Virus record (IMG/VR): IMGVR_UViG_3300049856_000157
Span: 1 to 42,868 of that record
Length of the DNA stretch: 42,868 nucleotides
Reading direction: 5' to 3' (one strand)
From: a virus
Positions 8,174-23,776 of this stretch are shown here, in pieces. Within the stretch, counting starts at the first letter, position 1; every line of letters begins with the position of its first letter. Below the pieces are notes generated by a model. The model was not told where the DNA came from. It did not search any database and saw nothing but the letters and a program-made list of their open reading frames with translations. A program made the translations under genes and the position numbers.

Positions 8174-8326
8174 TTATCTTGATCTGCATGCCGCGCCAAC
8201 GTCTACCAGGAGTTTCGTGACCGTGTTCAGGCTCACGTCTGCCAGCCTGGACGCGGCTCGGAGGGACATTCCCTCGGTCAGACATCCCAGGATTTGGACT
8301 CGCTTCTCGATTGGCAGGCGGTTCAT
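8174..8326 (-). CDS. Stand-alone HTH protein, remnant of an IS1-type transposase N-terminus
   Basis: A 50-residue ORF, ATG at 8326 and TAA at 8174-8176. The product starts MNRLPIEKRVQILGCL and continues through MSLRAASRLADVSLNTV and TKLLVDVGAAC, closely matching the N-terminal helix-turn-helix of IS1-family transposases. It stops right after that domain; no DDE domain follows. A GAGAGG ribosome site sits seven bases upstream and a good promoter with a 17-base spacer precedes it (8347-8375). That it is still expressed and regulates something is inference; it may also be a plain IS relic. Confidence 0.6.
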   Translation of the reverse strand: MNRLPIEKRVQILGCLTEGMSLRAASRLADVSLNTVTKLLVDVGAACRSR

Positions 8327-8337
8327 GATTGGACCTC

Positions 8338-8391
8338 TCAAGCATAAGTATCAGTTTAAGCTTGGAGGTTGTCAAGCATTAAGTTCAGTTT
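8338..8391. repeat. Two direct repeats TCAAGCAT-N5-TCAGTTT
   Basis: The motif TCAAGCAT-N5-TCAGTTT occurs at 8338-8357 and again at 8372-8391, 34 bases apart. Both copies overlap the promoter of the HTH remnant: one covers its -10, the other its -35. This is the arrangement of operators for an autoregulated gene. The protein that binds is not known; the HTH product itself is the obvious candidate. Confidence 0.55.
8347..8375 (-). promoter_or_regulatory. Sigma70-type promoter for the HTH remnant
   Basis: On the minus strand TTGACA (8370-8375) is followed after exactly 17 bases by GATACT (8347-8352). The ATG of the HTH ORF lies about 21 bases beyond the -10, leaving room for its GAGAGG ribosome site. 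Consensus -35, ideal spacing and a four-of-six -10 make this one of the best promoters in the window. Confidence 0.6.
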
Positions 8392-15154: not shown

Positions 15155-15795
15155 ATCGTGGCGGGCTCGGTCTGCATCGCAGTCAGGCGTTGCACCAACT
15201 CCGCCACTTCTGCATTGAATGTAATTACTTCGGCCTCTAGCGCCGCTATGTACTCCTCGTCGCGCTGGATGCGCTGTACATAGCGGCGCAGAGGCTTCGG
15301 CAGGCGCGGGTCAAAGGATTGGAAATCCCACCATTTGCGCCCGGTGATCCACATAAGGCCCTGGACCTGTGGGACATGCTCCTCGGGCATCCCGTCCAGG
15401 ATGGTGTACAGGTGATTAGCGGAATTGAACGGCGACTTCGATTCCCAGCCGCCGTCGTCGTCGATCAGGCCATCAGGTGAGCCGCCTACCCACTTCAGCG
15501 TCGGATGCTTGATGAAACCAGCCTCCTCGACCATCGCTCCGGTCGCAGCCTCGTAGTCCCAGCGTGAACGGATTTCGCATTCCTCACCCCATTGCATCGC
15601 GGCAGAAGCGAAGTGATCCGATGGCTGCCCGGTCAGGCGCTCGACGACCAGCTCCATGAGATACGCCCGCCGCTTCTCTGAGGGCTTGCCGGATTTCAGC
15701 TTCGCAATCACGTCGCAGAAGCGCGAACAGGTGCAGTAGCCGACCCTGGCGTAAAGCCAAGCCGCCGAACCTTGAGCAGCAGCATCGTCAGACAT
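15151..15795 (-). CDS. YqaJ-family (lambda Exo-like) recombination exonuclease
   Basis: A 214-residue PD-(D/E)xK nuclease of the YqaJ viral recombinase family, usual length about 200-220. Visible motifs: QGSAAWLYARVGYCTCSRF near the N-terminus (the R-x-G-x-T/S-A/C-S region), MQWGEECEIRSRWDYE (about 67-82), GGSPDGLIDDDGGWESKSP with the catalytic D and E-x-K (about 103-121) and HVPQVQGLMWITG. It would chew 5' ends to give 3' overhangs for the ERF protein encoded upstream. Start ATG overlaps the HNH gene by eight bases. The C-terminal 40 residues form a coiled coil. Confidence 0.9.
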   Translation of the reverse strand: MSDDAAAQGSAAWLYARVGYCTCSRFCDVIAKLKSGKPSEKRRAYLMELVVERLTGQPSDHFASAAMQWGEECEIRSRWDYEAATGAMVEEAGFIKHPTLKWVGGSPDGLIDDDGGWESKSPFNSANHLYTILDGMPEEHVPQVQGLMWITGRKWWDFQSFDPRLPKPLRRYVQRIQRDEEYIAALEAEVITFNAEVAELVQRLTAMQTEPATI

Positions 15796-16384
15796 GTAGT
15801 TTCCCCCGCTTCAGTCTTAGGCTTGCCGCGCCTCGCGTGATACCAAGGCGCGCAGCGATGTCCGAGATGTGAACGCGCGATCCATCCGAACAATTGACGT
15901 AGACGGCATCTATCTTGTTGCGGCCCTGTACAGCAGCGGTCGCCCAGCGCACGTTCCCTGGTTCGTAGCCTTTCGTGCCGTCTATGCGGTCTATCGTTGT
16001 GCCTTGCGGCCTAGGCCCGATGTGCTTGTAAAACTCGATGAACGATGTGCGCCATTCTTCGCAAACTCTGATGCCTTTCGCACCGTACTTTGAATGGTCC
16101 TTTGCTTTCGGGTTGTGGCACCGAGTTAACATTCCGCGCCACACGCTGTATTCGGTGGACTTTCGCATGCCGTGCGTCGTTTTGTTCAACGCTTTTTTGC
16201 GTAGGCAACCACAGCTTTTTGAGCCGCCAGAACGAAGGTAACGACCTGGAACAATGGCATTGCCTCCGCAGTCGCAAGCGCATTCCCACGTAATATGATT
16301 GTCGTCAGTGCGGCCTGATCTGCGCATGACAGAAAGTCGCCCGAACTTCCGGCCAACCATTTCCGCGCTGCCTTGCTCGCTCAT
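15788..16384 (-). CDS. HNH-type homing endonuclease with C-terminal HTH
   Basis: A 198-residue protein. N-terminal ribbon-like part with CACDCGG and SCGCL (about 34-60), then THGMRKSTEYSVWRGMLTRC, YGAKGIRVCEEW and IDRIDGTKGYEPGNVRWAT, the signature blocks of a common phage HNH endonuclease group. After residue 160 a small HTH (VHISDIAARLGITRGAASLR) is added, as in homing nucleases that carry DNA-recognition modules. It sits between the coiled-coil gene and YqaJ inside the recombination operon, overlapping both, and has a homologue at 23276-23776. Likely a mobile insert that has become coupled. Confidence 0.85.
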   Translation of the reverse strand: MSEQGSAEMVGRKFGRLSVMRRSGRTDDNHITWECACDCGGNAIVPGRYLRSGGSKSCGCLRKKALNKTTHGMRKSTEYSVWRGMLTRCHNPKAKDHSKYGAKGIRVCEEWRTSFIEFYKHIGPRPQGTTIDRIDGTKGYEPGNVRWATAAVQGRNKIDAVYVNCSDGSRVHISDIAARLGITRGAASLRLKRGKLHV

Positions 16385-17271
16385 GCGGTTTCCAAGCAGG
16401 CGTCAATAGCTTCAACAACGCCAGCAAACTCTGGCCGATGGCCGAAGCGTTTTTTGAACGTCGTCAGCATTCCGCGCGCATCCTCGCGCTCCGCTGCCTG
16501 CCTGCGTATCTCGCGCTGCTTGGCTTCTTCGGCATCGCGGATTGCCTTGGCTTTCGCTTCGGCCTCAGCCTGCTCCTTGCGCTTGATTTCCTCGACGGCG
16601 CGGCGCTCCGCTTCGATGCGGTCGCGCTCGGCCTTGAGTAGAGCTTCTTCGGCGTAACGGATTACCTTTGCTTTTGCCTCCTCCGCTTCGCGTATTTGAC
16701 GCGCGGCGCGGTCTGCCTCCTCGCGGGCCAGCCTCGCCGCACGCTCCTCGGCTTCGATCTTTTCTCGGCTGGCCCGCTGCTCCGCTTCGATCTTGGCGCG
16801 GGCTTCGGCCTCGACTCGTAGGCGTTCCTGCACCTCCTTCTGCATCTCGGCCCGCTGACGCGCAATCTCCGCGCGCTCCGCAGCTATGCGCGCTTCTTCG
16901 GCATCTTTCAGCGCCTTCTGCTCGGCAAGAATGCGCTCCTGCTCAAGCCGCACGCGCTCCGCCTGCTCGCGCTCGACCCGCTTTGTTTCGGTTTCGATCT
17001 GTGCCTTGATTGGCAGGCGCAGGGCATCGATTTGTCGTGCTATGCGCGCGGCCTCTGAATCCACGAACCGTCCATAGGCAAGGCTCTCGGCCTTCTCCTC
17101 GACGCGCCCAGCTTCCAGCGTGATACTGTAGGTATTTATTTCCTTGTAGGCGGCTTTTGCCTCCTGCATCCCTTTAGCAGCGGTTACATCGAAAACAATT
17201 CCCTTGTAGCGTGCGGCAAGATCGGCGAGCGCAGCCTCAACTTGTATATACCTAACAATCGCAGTAGTCAT
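16381..17271 (-). CDS. Coiled-coil protein of the recombination module (DUF1351-like)
   Basis: A 296-residue protein, ATG 17271 overlapping the ERF stop (ATGA). The N-terminal ~100 residues (VEAALADLAARYKGIVFDVT, then KAAYKEINTYSITLE) resemble DUF1351 proteins that accompany phage single-strand annealing proteins. Residues about 100-270 are a very long Arg/Glu/Ala coiled coil; the C-terminus (TTFKKRFGHRPEFAGVVEAI) is a short globular end. Probably a partner or scaffold of ERF and YqaJ. Function inferred from neighbourhood. Confidence 0.75.
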   Translation of the reverse strand: MTTAIVRYIQVEAALADLAARYKGIVFDVTAAKGMQEAKAAYKEINTYSITLEAGRVEEKAESLAYGRFVDSEAARIARQIDALRLPIKAQIETETKRVEREQAERVRLEQERILAEQKALKDAEEARIAAERAEIARQRAEMQKEVQERLRVEAEARAKIEAEQRASREKIEAEERAARLAREEADRAARQIREAEEAKAKVIRYAEEALLKAERDRIEAERRAVEEIKRKEQAEAEAKAKAIRDAEEAKQREIRRQAAEREDARGMLTTFKKRFGHRPEFAGVVEAIDACLETA

Positions 17272-19663: not shown

Positions 19664-19768
19664 CTAGGCGTATTTCGCCTCGAACGGTGTTTTTGATTGC
19701 GCAGCTTGCTCGAAAGCATTAAGCAGATAGGTAAATTTGCTCGGTATGGCGCCGAATTGTTTACTCAT
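19664..19768 (-). CDS. Micro-protein (34 residues)
   Basis: ATG 19768 overlaps the stop of the preceding 27-residue membrane ORF (ATGA); TAG at 19664-19666. The product starts MSKQFGAIPSKFTYLLNAFE and is amphipathic. Credible because it is coupled and fills a space otherwise without a gene. Function unknown. Confidence 0.5.
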   Translation of the reverse strand: MSKQFGAIPSKFTYLLNAFEQAAQSKTPFEAKYA

Positions 19769-19848
19769 GCCGCCCCCAGCATGCTGCAGGCCACGAACGA
19801 AATCAGCACCAGAAACAGAACGATGACTTCGATTTGCTCTCGGATCAT
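19765..19848 (-). CDS. Micro-protein, single membrane segment (27 residues)
   Basis: ATG 19848 overlaps the stop of the lipoprotein gene, and the TGA (19765-19767) overlaps the next ATG. After MIREQIE the chain is VIVLFLVLISFVACSMLG, one transmembrane helix. Position directly after the metzincin-motif lipoprotein suggests it acts with it, for example as an anchor; inference only. Confidence 0.5.
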   Translation of the reverse strand: MIREQIEVIVLFLVLISFVACSMLGAA

Positions 19849-20243
19849 CACTTCCCCCTGTAGGTTGCGAGCATGTCCTTCATCGCGGTGCTTCCGACGT
19901 GATCGAAGCCGAGGCAGTGCTGCCGCTCGTGCGCTACCACATACGACGCGGGCGGAAAGTCGGCGCTCAGCCAGATGTCGCAGCGCGCCGCCGAGAACGC
20001 GAACTCCGCGCACGCCTCGGGCACCGATCCGAGTGCCATGTACAGCCCGCAGCGGTTTCGCATCTCCGCGTGCGCGACGTAGTGCTCGACGATCTCTAGC
20101 TGCGGCCAGCCTGCTACCGGCTCGCGGGCGTTCACCGTGCAGCCTGTCAAGAGGACCATAGTGACGATAAGAGCGATGACGACCAGCATGTCTCGCGCCC
20201 ACCTTGCCATCTGCTGCTCGAATTCCTCATAGTCATAATCCAC
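19848..20243 (-). CDS. Lipoprotein with metzincin-type HExxHxxGxxH motif
   Basis: 131 residues, GTG start at 20243 with GAGG upstream; an internal ATG (residue 12, MARWARD) could begin a classical signal. A hydrophobic segment (about 19-32) runs into a lipobox LLTGC with Cys35 as lipidation site. Near the C-terminus HERQHCLGFDH (105-115) has all three zinc ligands and the Glu of a metzincin HExxHxxGxxH site, followed by a Met-containing turn-like STAMKDM. Five further Cys may pair in the periplasm. It is the first gene after P_L. Predicted membrane-anchored zinc peptidase or its inactive relative; substrate unknown. Confidence 0.7.
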   Translation of the reverse strand: MDYDYEEFEQQMARWARDMLVVIALIVTMVLLTGCTVNAREPVAGWPQLEIVEHYVAHAEMRNRCGLYMALGSVPEACAEFAFSAARCDIWLSADFPPASYVVAHERQHCLGFDHVGSTAMKDMLATYRGK

Positions 20244-20285: not shown

Positions 20286-20328
20286 ATGCTAAACGGTAAA
20301 CCGCTAGTCTGTCAAGCGGAAAACCGTT
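20286..20328 (-). promoter_or_regulatory. P_L promoter with operator pair
   Basis: On the minus strand TTGACA (20310-20315) and TAGCAT (20286-20291) are 18 bases apart, driving the leftward early operon 43 bases downstream. Two 14-base operators of the form ARCGG-N4-CCGYT sit at 20292-20305 (between -35 and -10) and 20315-20328 (touching the -35), separated by nine bases. The same pair with the same spacing occurs at P_R (21002-21038). Confidence 0.75.
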
Positions 20329-20373: not shown

Positions 20374-20604
20374 CTACTCTTTCAGGAGGTTATTCGCTGC
20401 TCTGGCGAGCCCGCCGAGGAGGGCATTGGCGCGGATCGTCGAGAGATCCCCAGCCAAAAGGGGCTGAACTTCGTTCACCGGATTGCCGGCGATGATCGCT
20501 ATGTAGGGCACCCGGCCATGCCGGGCCGCTTCTAATGTGCGCTCTAGAAGCTCGATGACTTCGTTGTTTGGCTTGGGCTCGGTCCTAAATCTTCGATCCG
20601 TCAC
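20374..20604 (-). CDS. Hypothetical protein co-transcribed with the repressor
   Basis: A 76-residue protein, GTG start ten bases after the repressor stop. Helical: NNEVIELLERTLEAARHGRV, YIAIIAGNPVNEVQPLLAGD and LLGGLARAANNLLKE. Its place in the repressor transcript suggests expression in the lysogen, so a maintenance or exclusion role is possible. Not recognised. Confidence 0.6.
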   Translation of the reverse strand: MTDRRFRTEPKPNNEVIELLERTLEAARHGRVPYIAIIAGNPVNEVQPLLAGDLSTIRANALLGGLARAANNLLKE

Positions 20605-20614
20605 CTACCATACA

Positions 20615-20974
20615 TTACGCGCGCCTTTTCTTACTGTCACGTAGCTTACCGGTGGGCAAATTATCAGCGCGTCCTGAAATCGGAGGCCACACTGGGAGAT
20701 TGTGAATATTCCCGGAGTCCTTTAGCTCGGTCAGCAAAGCGACCGCTGGTACTTGGAGTGCGGTTGCGATCTTATGCACCTGTTCAAGGCGCGGATCGGA
20801 CTGACGGCTAAAGATATCGTTCAGCGTTGTCTGCGGCGGCGCACCGATGCGCTTAGCGAGTTGTGTCGTATTGATCCCCTGTCGAGCCATTTCCTCATGG
20901 ACGCGCTTGAGAAATATTTCCTGGAGCTGTGACTTAATTGCTTTCTTCTTGATGGGTTTGGTAGTCCTCGGCAT
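20615..20974 (-). CDS. Compact CI-type repressor, HTH only
   Basis: A 119-residue protein starting MPRTTKPIKKK at ATG 20974. Residues about 30-85 form an HTH_3 (Cro/CI) domain: RQGINTTQLAKRIGAPPQTT, LNDIFSRQSDPRLEQVHKIA, TALQVPAVALL. The remaining ~35 residues are polar; there is no S24/LexA-type self-cleavage domain. It is divergent from the Cro-like gene, with the operators between them, so it is the likely lysogeny repressor. There is no properly spaced ribosome site, so the mRNA may be leaderless or weakly translated. Confidence 0.8.
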   Translation of the reverse strand: MPRTTKPIKKKAIKSQLQEIFLKRVHEEMARQGINTTQLAKRIGAPPQTTLNDIFSRQSDPRLEQVHKIATALQVPAVALLTELKDSGNIHNLPVWPPISGRADNLPTGKLRDSKKRRA

Positions 20975-21001
20975 CCCCAAACAATGCCTAAAATCAGAGG
21001 T

Positions 21002-21043
21002 AACGGCATACCGCTTGCATTCTAAGCGGTTTTCCGTTAAGTT
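21002..21043 (+). promoter_or_regulatory. P_R promoter with operator pair
   Basis: Operators AACGG-CATA-CCGCT (21002-21015) and AGCGG-TTTT-CCGTT (21025-21038) are nine bases apart, centre to centre 23, identical in geometry to those at P_L. TTGCAT (21015-21020) aligns with the P_L -35, and TAAGTT (about 21038-21043) is the likely -10. Transcription would begin very near the ATG at 21051. The minus strand of the same 76-base gap must hold the repressor promoter. Confidence 0.72.
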
Positions 21044-21050
21044 TCTCGGC

Positions 21051-21233
21051 ATGGACATTTACGACGCTGCCTTGAGGCGCCTACGCGCTGATGCCCGAGC
21101 ACCCGCCGAGCTCGAAAAAGAAATCGGCGTCCCGGCGGGCACGCTCAGAGACCTCAAAAATAATCTCTGCACGAACCCGAGGATGAAAACGGTGAAGAAG
21201 ATCGTCGCCCATTACTTTCCGAAATTTGCGTGA
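21051..21233 (+). CDS. Cro-like regulator
   Basis: A 60-residue protein, ATG 21051, first gene rightward of the switch. MDIYDAALRRLRADARAPAE, LEKEIGVPAGTLRDLKNN and MKTVKKIVAHYF look like a small helix-turn-helix. Size and position are those of Cro. It has no ribosome site in the eight bases before the ATG, and the predicted -10 lies only about eight bases upstream, so translation may be leaderless. Confidence 0.65.
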   Translation: MDIYDAALRRLRADARAPAELEKEIGVPAGTLRDLKNNLCTNPRMKTVKKIVAHYFPKFA

Positions 21234-22955: not shown

Positions 22956-23279
22956 GTGGGTGCTGCCGACCCGTTCGCGGAGCTGGATGCGCTACGCACC
23001 GAGCGCAATTCTGCGGTGGCCGAAGCGAAGCTGTGGCTGCGCCGGATGCTCACCATGCAGCGCGAGCGCGACCAAGCAAAGCTAAATCTGTACGAATGCG
23101 ACAAGTGCCTGGGCGAGTGGCAAGCGGCCTATGACGATCTGTTACGCGCGTTTCGCCGCCTCGAAGTCGCCTACGGGCATGAAAAGTGGGCCGCTGAGAC
23201 GGGCGATTTTCTGATTGCCCATCTTCAGCCGCTCGCAATGGCGCAGCTCCAGCGGCTGATCGATGAGGCACCCGAGTGA
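22956..23279 (+). CDS. Hypothetical coiled-coil protein
   Basis: A 107-residue protein with GTG start directly after the previous stop. Long helices (ELDALRTERNSAVAEAKLWL and RRMLTMQRERDQAKLN) around a single CDKC pair. Overlaps the HNH gene by GTGA. Function unknown; typical accessory of phage replication operons. Confidence 0.6.
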   Translation: MGAADPFAELDALRTERNSAVAEAKLWLRRMLTMQRERDQAKLNLYECDKCLGEWQAAYDDLLRAFRRLEVAYGHEKWAAETGDFLIAHLQPLAMAQLQRLIDEAPE

Positions 23280-23776
23280 ACGCGAAAAATCTAGATGGCC
23301 TTCGCTTTGGTCGCTTAGTCGCTCTCAAGCGGGCGCCTAATAGGCGCTACCCATGCGGCAAGTCTCTTGTTTTTTGGCTATGCCGCTGTGATTGCGGGGT
23401 AGAGAAAGAGATAACGGCTGGATATTTACATTCTGCGCACACGCAATCCTGCGGGTGCCGACAGAAAGAATTAGCCCGTAGCCAAAATATTACGCATGGG
23501 ATGCGGCACACACCAGAGTATGACGCGTGGACCAATATGATTGCTCGCTGCACTCGCCAAAATAACAAACGGTACAAAGATTACGGCGGACGCGGGATAC
23601 GGATTTGTGACTCGTGGCTAAACTCCTTCGCCAGCTTTTATGCCGCCATTGGCCGACGTACGTCTCCAAAGTACAGCATCGACAGAATAAACAACGATGG
23701 CAATTACGAGCCTGGTAACTGCCGTTGGGCCACCCCGAAAGAGCAGAGGCATAACCGGCGGGATAGTGCGAGGTAA
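23276..23776 (+). CDS. HNH-type homing endonuclease
   Basis: A 166-residue protein, GTG start overlapping the previous stop. Blocks CRCDCGVEKEI, TQSCGCRQKEL, ITHGMRHTPEYDAWTNMIAR, YGGRGIRICDSW and SIDRINNDGNYEPGNCRWAT define the same phage HNH group as 15788-16384, which it resembles throughout but without the C-terminal HTH. Its bases are visibly more AT-rich than those of its neighbours, suggesting recent arrival. It sits directly before the primase-helicase gene. Confidence 0.87.
   Translation: MNAKNLDGLRFGRLVALKRAPNRRYPCGKSLVFWLCRCDCGVEKEITAGYLHSAHTQSCGCRQKELARSQNITHGMRHTPEYDAWTNMIARCTRQNNKRYKDYGGRGIRICDSWLNSFASFYAAIGRRTSPKYSIDRINNDGNYEPGNCRWATPKEQRHNRRDSAR

Follow-up and report, generated by a model that had tools for sequence, protein, structure and literature searches.

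A small lipoprotein gene of a temperate phage probably encodes, to judge from its sequence, a minimal zinc hydrolase that acts on the host envelope. The full best explanation, to which we assign a probability of roughly one half, is a mini-zincin stapled by disulfides, which modifies a protein of the host envelope in the lytic phase. The gene lies in a 42,868-base IMG/VR virus record (the whole stretch analyzed here, or the window), which reads as a temperate tailed phage, with recognizable genes for an integrase, an Erf-like annealing protein, a RecE/YqaJ-type exonuclease, a CI-like repressor, a primase, a terminase, and a portal protein. Elsewhere in the window, two homologous open reading frames (ORFs) appear by eye to be of the HNH/AP2-like homing-endonuclease type (15788–16384, minus strand, and 23276–23773, plus strand), with a relative in L013. 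A charged protein rich in Ala, Glu, and Arg (16384–17271, minus strand) adjoins the annealing protein and matches PHROGs 16469 and 17928 (unknown function), and a short ORF (8174–8341, minus strand) resembles a helix-turn-helix fragment of the transposase type, which is IS1-like by eye.

The lipoprotein gene occupies positions 19848–20243 of the minus strand and encodes 131 amino acids from a GTG start, immediately 5' of which lies the Shine-Dalgarno-like sequence GAGAGG. An earlier note on this DNA had placed the gene at these coordinates and on this strand, and had described a membrane segment, a lipobox, and a zinc motif complete in its three His, its Glu, and its Gly, all of which are present. 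A hydrophobic N-terminal helix (residues 5–33 in the structure model) leads into the lipobox LLTGC (residues 31–35; 20139–20153, minus strand), whose Cys is kept in 19 of the 21 family rows, and this combination of a signal peptide and a lipobox Cys identifies the protein, from sequence alone, as a bacterial-type lipoprotein. The signal peptide of the window protein has a long, acidic n-region, which counts against the best explanation. In Escherichia coli, an Asp at position +2 after the lipidated Cys decides the sorting of lipoproteins, and those that lack it are expected in the outer membrane. Here, the lipid-acceptor Cys35 is followed by Thr, and the absence of Asp from the +2 position would thus place the protein on the periplasmic face of the outer membrane. 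The zinc-site motif, HERQHCLGFDH (residues 105–115; 19899–19931, minus strand), comprises H105, E106, H109, G112, and H115, with C110 alongside. Across all six frames, the window contains the pattern HExxHxxGxxH once, against a chance expectation of 0.004–0.005 (from residue shuffles and base frequencies).

The family to which the protein belongs is apparently undescribed, and comprises proteins of 74–197 amino acids, most of them lipoproteins and most of them from phages. In addition to a close relative, L001, which shares 76% identity across the mature part, approximately 20 further members were recovered from virus contigs, by pattern matching and alignment, and from one genome scan. The invariance of the motif in the members retrieved by its pattern is a product of the search itself, and was given no weight; among the four Cys of the mature part, only C110 belonged to the search pattern, which did not contain the lipobox. 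By contrast, L001, L062, and L063 were retrieved through the patterns GWPQLEI, VEHYVAH, and DWPxL, rather than through the motif, and all keep HExxHCxGxxH, as does every other close relative retrieved that can be read in one frame. The loss of the motif from most homologues, which the earlier note had named as one result that would overturn its claim, did not occur. A further close relative, L058, was left out of this comparison because what appear to be sequencing errors interrupt its reading frame. The lipoprotein gene is under purifying selection, with a dN/dS of approximately 0.23 between the window protein and L001 (mature part), and 0.13 between L037 and L054.

Searches of Pfam, NCBIfam, and the PDB gave the family no match that passed the threshold, and its matches in PHROGs are weak. 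Searches by tblastn recovered nothing meaningful, either with the window protein against the phage and plasmid collections, or with four other members against the phages, and a search of 185 and 398 genomes with profile A4 returned rare matches, mostly weak or unrelated. In PADLOC, no model of the known anti-phage defense proteins was matched. A candidate anchor for the family, PHROG 27783, was rejected, having yielded weak matches and one weak match containing a stop in 299 genomes, and many pattern matches, such as SprT-like proteins and larger metzincins, were put aside as other families.

The genomic settings of the members are varied. Close relatives are found in early regions, near a HJ resolvase in the case of L059, and near a RecE-type exonuclease and a DnaB helicase in the case of L061. 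The distant members L047 and L013 adjoin head-tail connector genes in late structural regions, which means that early expression is not a property of the whole family, and the use of the protein may differ between lineages. Given the existence of chromosomal-looking relatives (L063, and L074, which is flanked by ordinary genes in L089), the family is not exclusively viral. A large conserved protein is encoded directly or nearly 5' of several distant members (L046, 4608–6272; L049, 2–1666; L026, 4409–6595; L047, 2441–5626), and its copy in L046 has no match in Pfam or PHROGs. A sub-branch formed by L094, L095, L096, and L074, represented on virus contigs as well as on a bacterial chromosome, has the motif HExxHCFEGxxH, with an extra residue before the Gly (HEFRHCFEGYWH, HEVRHCFEGRFH). 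Two lipoproteins of bacterial genomes, L075 and L076, combine HELAHANGWSRTHEGG with a similar set of four Cys, of which one is shifted to just before the motif, and may represent a cellular branch of this family.

Not counting the lipid acceptor, the mature part contains exactly four Cys in nearly all the members. Two of these, C65 and C78, are absent jointly from L030, L041, and L094, where C88 and C110 are retained, and are never absent singly. Loss only as a pair suggests two disulfides, C65–C78 and C88–C110, a pairing which these three cases, given their shared ancestry, support rather than prove.

The structure was modeled in AlphaFold with 20–21 family sequences, and the prediction is confident, with a pLDDT of 90.9 for the full length and 89.7 for the mature domain (pTM 0.82). 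The predicted domain is compact, and consists of a strand, a helix, a two-strand hairpin, the motif helix (100–110), a loop with the third His, and a final helix. In keeping with the demands of the motif, two of its His are one turn apart on the predicted helix, and the third comes after the Gly turn. A Foldseek comparison of two confident models with the PDB produced no match at E ≤ 0.001. The best match to MMP-11 (E about 1, TM-score 0.3–0.36) and that to YbeY (TM-score up to 0.44) are not significant. Among viral models, two uncharacterized Caudovirales proteins, A0A6J7WQR9 (E 2.7e-5) and A0A6J5LHA2 (E 3.4e-4), were matched with a probability of 1.00 in both cases, and are likely, on the predicted fold, to be members of the family.

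The earlier note had labeled the protein a metzincin and had proposed a structural comparison with that clan, and the strict label is not borne out. Although the HExxHxxGxxH/D motif of the clan is present, the Met-turn, a defining feature of the metzincins, is missing from the family, and no fold in the PDB significantly matches the confident model. Most members have no Met just after the third His, and a Met at +6 from this residue is found only in the window protein and L001. Several relatives end 0–3 residues past the third His, which leaves little room for a substrate cleft. With the matrixins, reprolysins, and astacins, the family shares the motif and, near the active-site helix, a weak similarity of profile, but in most members the mature domain is only about 60–100 residues long. 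The Pfam models of reprolysin, astacin, and YbeY match several members weakly (E 0.02–0.1), an ADAMTS-5 profile matches over 68 residues (E 0.1), and a match to the YbeY gene in G333 was counted as further weak similarity to zincins. The similarity of these profiles is thus weak, though consistent across searches, and neither fold nor sequence gives a significant match to any proven metalloenzyme. The spacing of the YbeY endoribonuclease (PF02130), HxxxHxxGYDH, is almost identical to that of the phage motif, but YbeY has Gly at the position of the phage Glu and is cytoplasmic. Membership of PF02130, whose motif is HGxLHLxGYDH, is not indicated either, with a best Pfam E of 0.054 for any member and an hhalign probability of 14.5%. 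A profile comparison with viral metzincins (95.7%) was discounted, since the motif had itself served to select these proteins and the alignment spans only 24 columns. A zincin-like site with metzincin-type spacing is the limit of what the evidence supports. Five larger viral proteins, apparently exported (L006, L016, L020, L032, and L034), combine HExxHCxGxxH with a conserved downstream Met, and are better candidates for true phage metzincins.

The control region fits the description in the earlier note of the first gene under P_L. A P_L-like promoter, TTGACA-18-TAGCAT (20286–20315, minus strand), is overlapped by operator-like repeats, GCGGTTTACCGTTTAG and ACGGTTTTCCGCTTGA (20289–20327). The GCGGTTTACCGTTTAG site lies at 20289–20304, and with its partner sites at 20312–20327, 20999–21014, and 21026–21041, it flanks the repressor gene, the last two sites forming the matching repeats of the repressor/cro-like interval (20999–21041). 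The CI-like repressor (XRE; 20615–20974, minus strand) matches a PHROGs transcriptional repressor at E 5e-9, and the cro-like regulator (21051–21233, plus strand) matches the transcriptional repressor phrog_9425 at E 2e-4; between the repressor and P_L lies a 76-aa ORF (20374–20604, minus strand) with a weak match to phrog_796 (E 0.001). The repeats are statistically weak alone, with seven of 100 shuffles reaching the same number of sites at three mismatches, but there are two perfect copies, one in each control region (P_L and the repressor/cro-like interval). The promoter, together with operators that have a perfect partner copy, marks the lipoprotein as the first gene of a P_L-type operon, which continues toward the recombination genes. 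By analogy with circuits of the lambda type, the gene should be silent in the lysogen and turned on early in lytic growth, which would favor a role in lytic growth over exclusion at the prophage stage, since P_L is repressed in the lysogen. The L001 homologue has the same position, adjoining a repressor, and a consensus scan of its locus found no promoter.

A hydrophobic peptide of 27 residues, MIREQIEVIVLFLVLISFVACSMLGAA (19765–19848, minus strand), follows the lipoprotein, and its ATG overlaps the lipoprotein stop by one base. The coupled membrane peptide of the earlier note thus exists, but it is not a conserved partner, as the next gene in L001 is an unrelated ORF of 63 aa, and it was left out of the mechanism.

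In the proposed mechanism, the gene would be repressed in the lysogen and its product made from P_L as lytic growth starts. The protein would be exported, lipidated on Cys35, and, under the +2 rule, probably transported to the outer membrane, where it would sit on the inner face and its catalytic domain would lie in the periplasm. A zinc ion would be coordinated by H105, H109, and H115, with E106 serving as the general base, as in other zincins with HExxHxxGxxH, while the two putative disulfides would stand in for the scaffold of the larger metzincins. A host envelope protein would be cleaved or otherwise modified, so that adsorption is blocked (superinfection exclusion) or the envelope is prepared for lysis. 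The early, repressor-controlled expression and the envelope location proposed in the earlier note are upheld by the promoter, the operators, and the lipobox, and the function suggested there, namely exclusion or the removal of a receptor, is a plausible conjecture.

The nearest published parallels are the T5 lipoprotein Llp and Listeria Mtz, and each gives rise to a different reading of the protein. Like the phage lipoprotein, Llp and Rtp45 are small phage lipoproteins of lytic growth; Llp is periplasmic, lipidated, and stapled by a Cys11–Cys58 disulfide (PMC9586334), and both prevent superinfection through binding to receptors from the periplasmic side (PMC9586334, PMC12685063), the receptor in the case of Rtp45 being LptD (PMC12685063). 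The window protein, being small, early, lipid-anchored, and probably Cys-stapled, might likewise bind the periplasmic face of a receptor and change its outer loops, and any zinc would then be structural, which would also account for the missing Met-turn and the very short members. This non-enzymatic role is nevertheless unlikely. A structural zinc needs no general-base Glu, whereas E106 is found in every member retrieved, including those found independently of the motif, and its conservation favors catalysis over pure binding. We know of no zinc motif in either Llp or Rtp45. The window protein has no similarity to Cor, of the Llp/Cor family, and its relatives match over the signal peptide only (E 0.07–0.11).

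Mtz (LMRG_00713) is a phage-derived metzincin of Listeria that adjoins a cI-cro switch, apparently cleaves the lipoprotein Tim, and promotes lysis by phages (PMC8235301). It shares with the phage lipoprotein, as described, the HExxHxxGxxH motif, export, phage origin, and a position next to cI/cro, but it carries an SPI signal and possesses a Met-turn (AIMLD). In the Listeria pair, the lipoprotein is the partner of Mtz, whereas here the lipoprotein and the motif protein are one. On this precedent, the window protein could cleave an envelope lipoprotein or a wall-associated protein so that the lysis proteins of the phage work better. Such a lysis-priming role is doubtful, however, given that the gene lies about 11 kb from a holin-like ORF, on the opposite strand and under an early promoter, and that no Tim-like partner is conserved beside it.

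An outer spanin (Rz1-like) or an entry-exclusion (EexN) lipoprotein is highly improbable. The protein is a lipoprotein, and there are weak N-terminal matches to an EexN model (window protein) and to Rz-like models (relatives), but these lie mainly over the signal peptide, and the gene is outside any lysis cassette; to our knowledge, neither spanins nor EexN contain an HExxHxxGxxH site. An accidental motif or the relic of a decayed gene, as the lack of a database family above threshold might suggest, is refuted by an expectation of 0.005 per window, conservation of the motif across divergent phages, and a dN/dS of about 0.2.

The preferred reading, an envelope hydrolase of the lytic phase, may extend to the family. 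Somewhat short of even odds, and thus tentatively, its members would make up a new class of envelope metallohydrolases, the smallest of their kind, lipid-anchored and disulfide-stapled mini-zincins of 60–100 residues, without a Met-turn, which cleave a host envelope protein in diverse environmental phages and are encoded by the first lytic gene in one lineage. As the family is compact and conserved, with clear residues to mutate, both its enzymology and its role in the phage are directly testable. If active, these proteins would, in our judgment, be among the smallest enzymes of the zincin type, and phages would alter the envelope they have just crossed by lipid-anchored hydrolysis, and not by binding alone.
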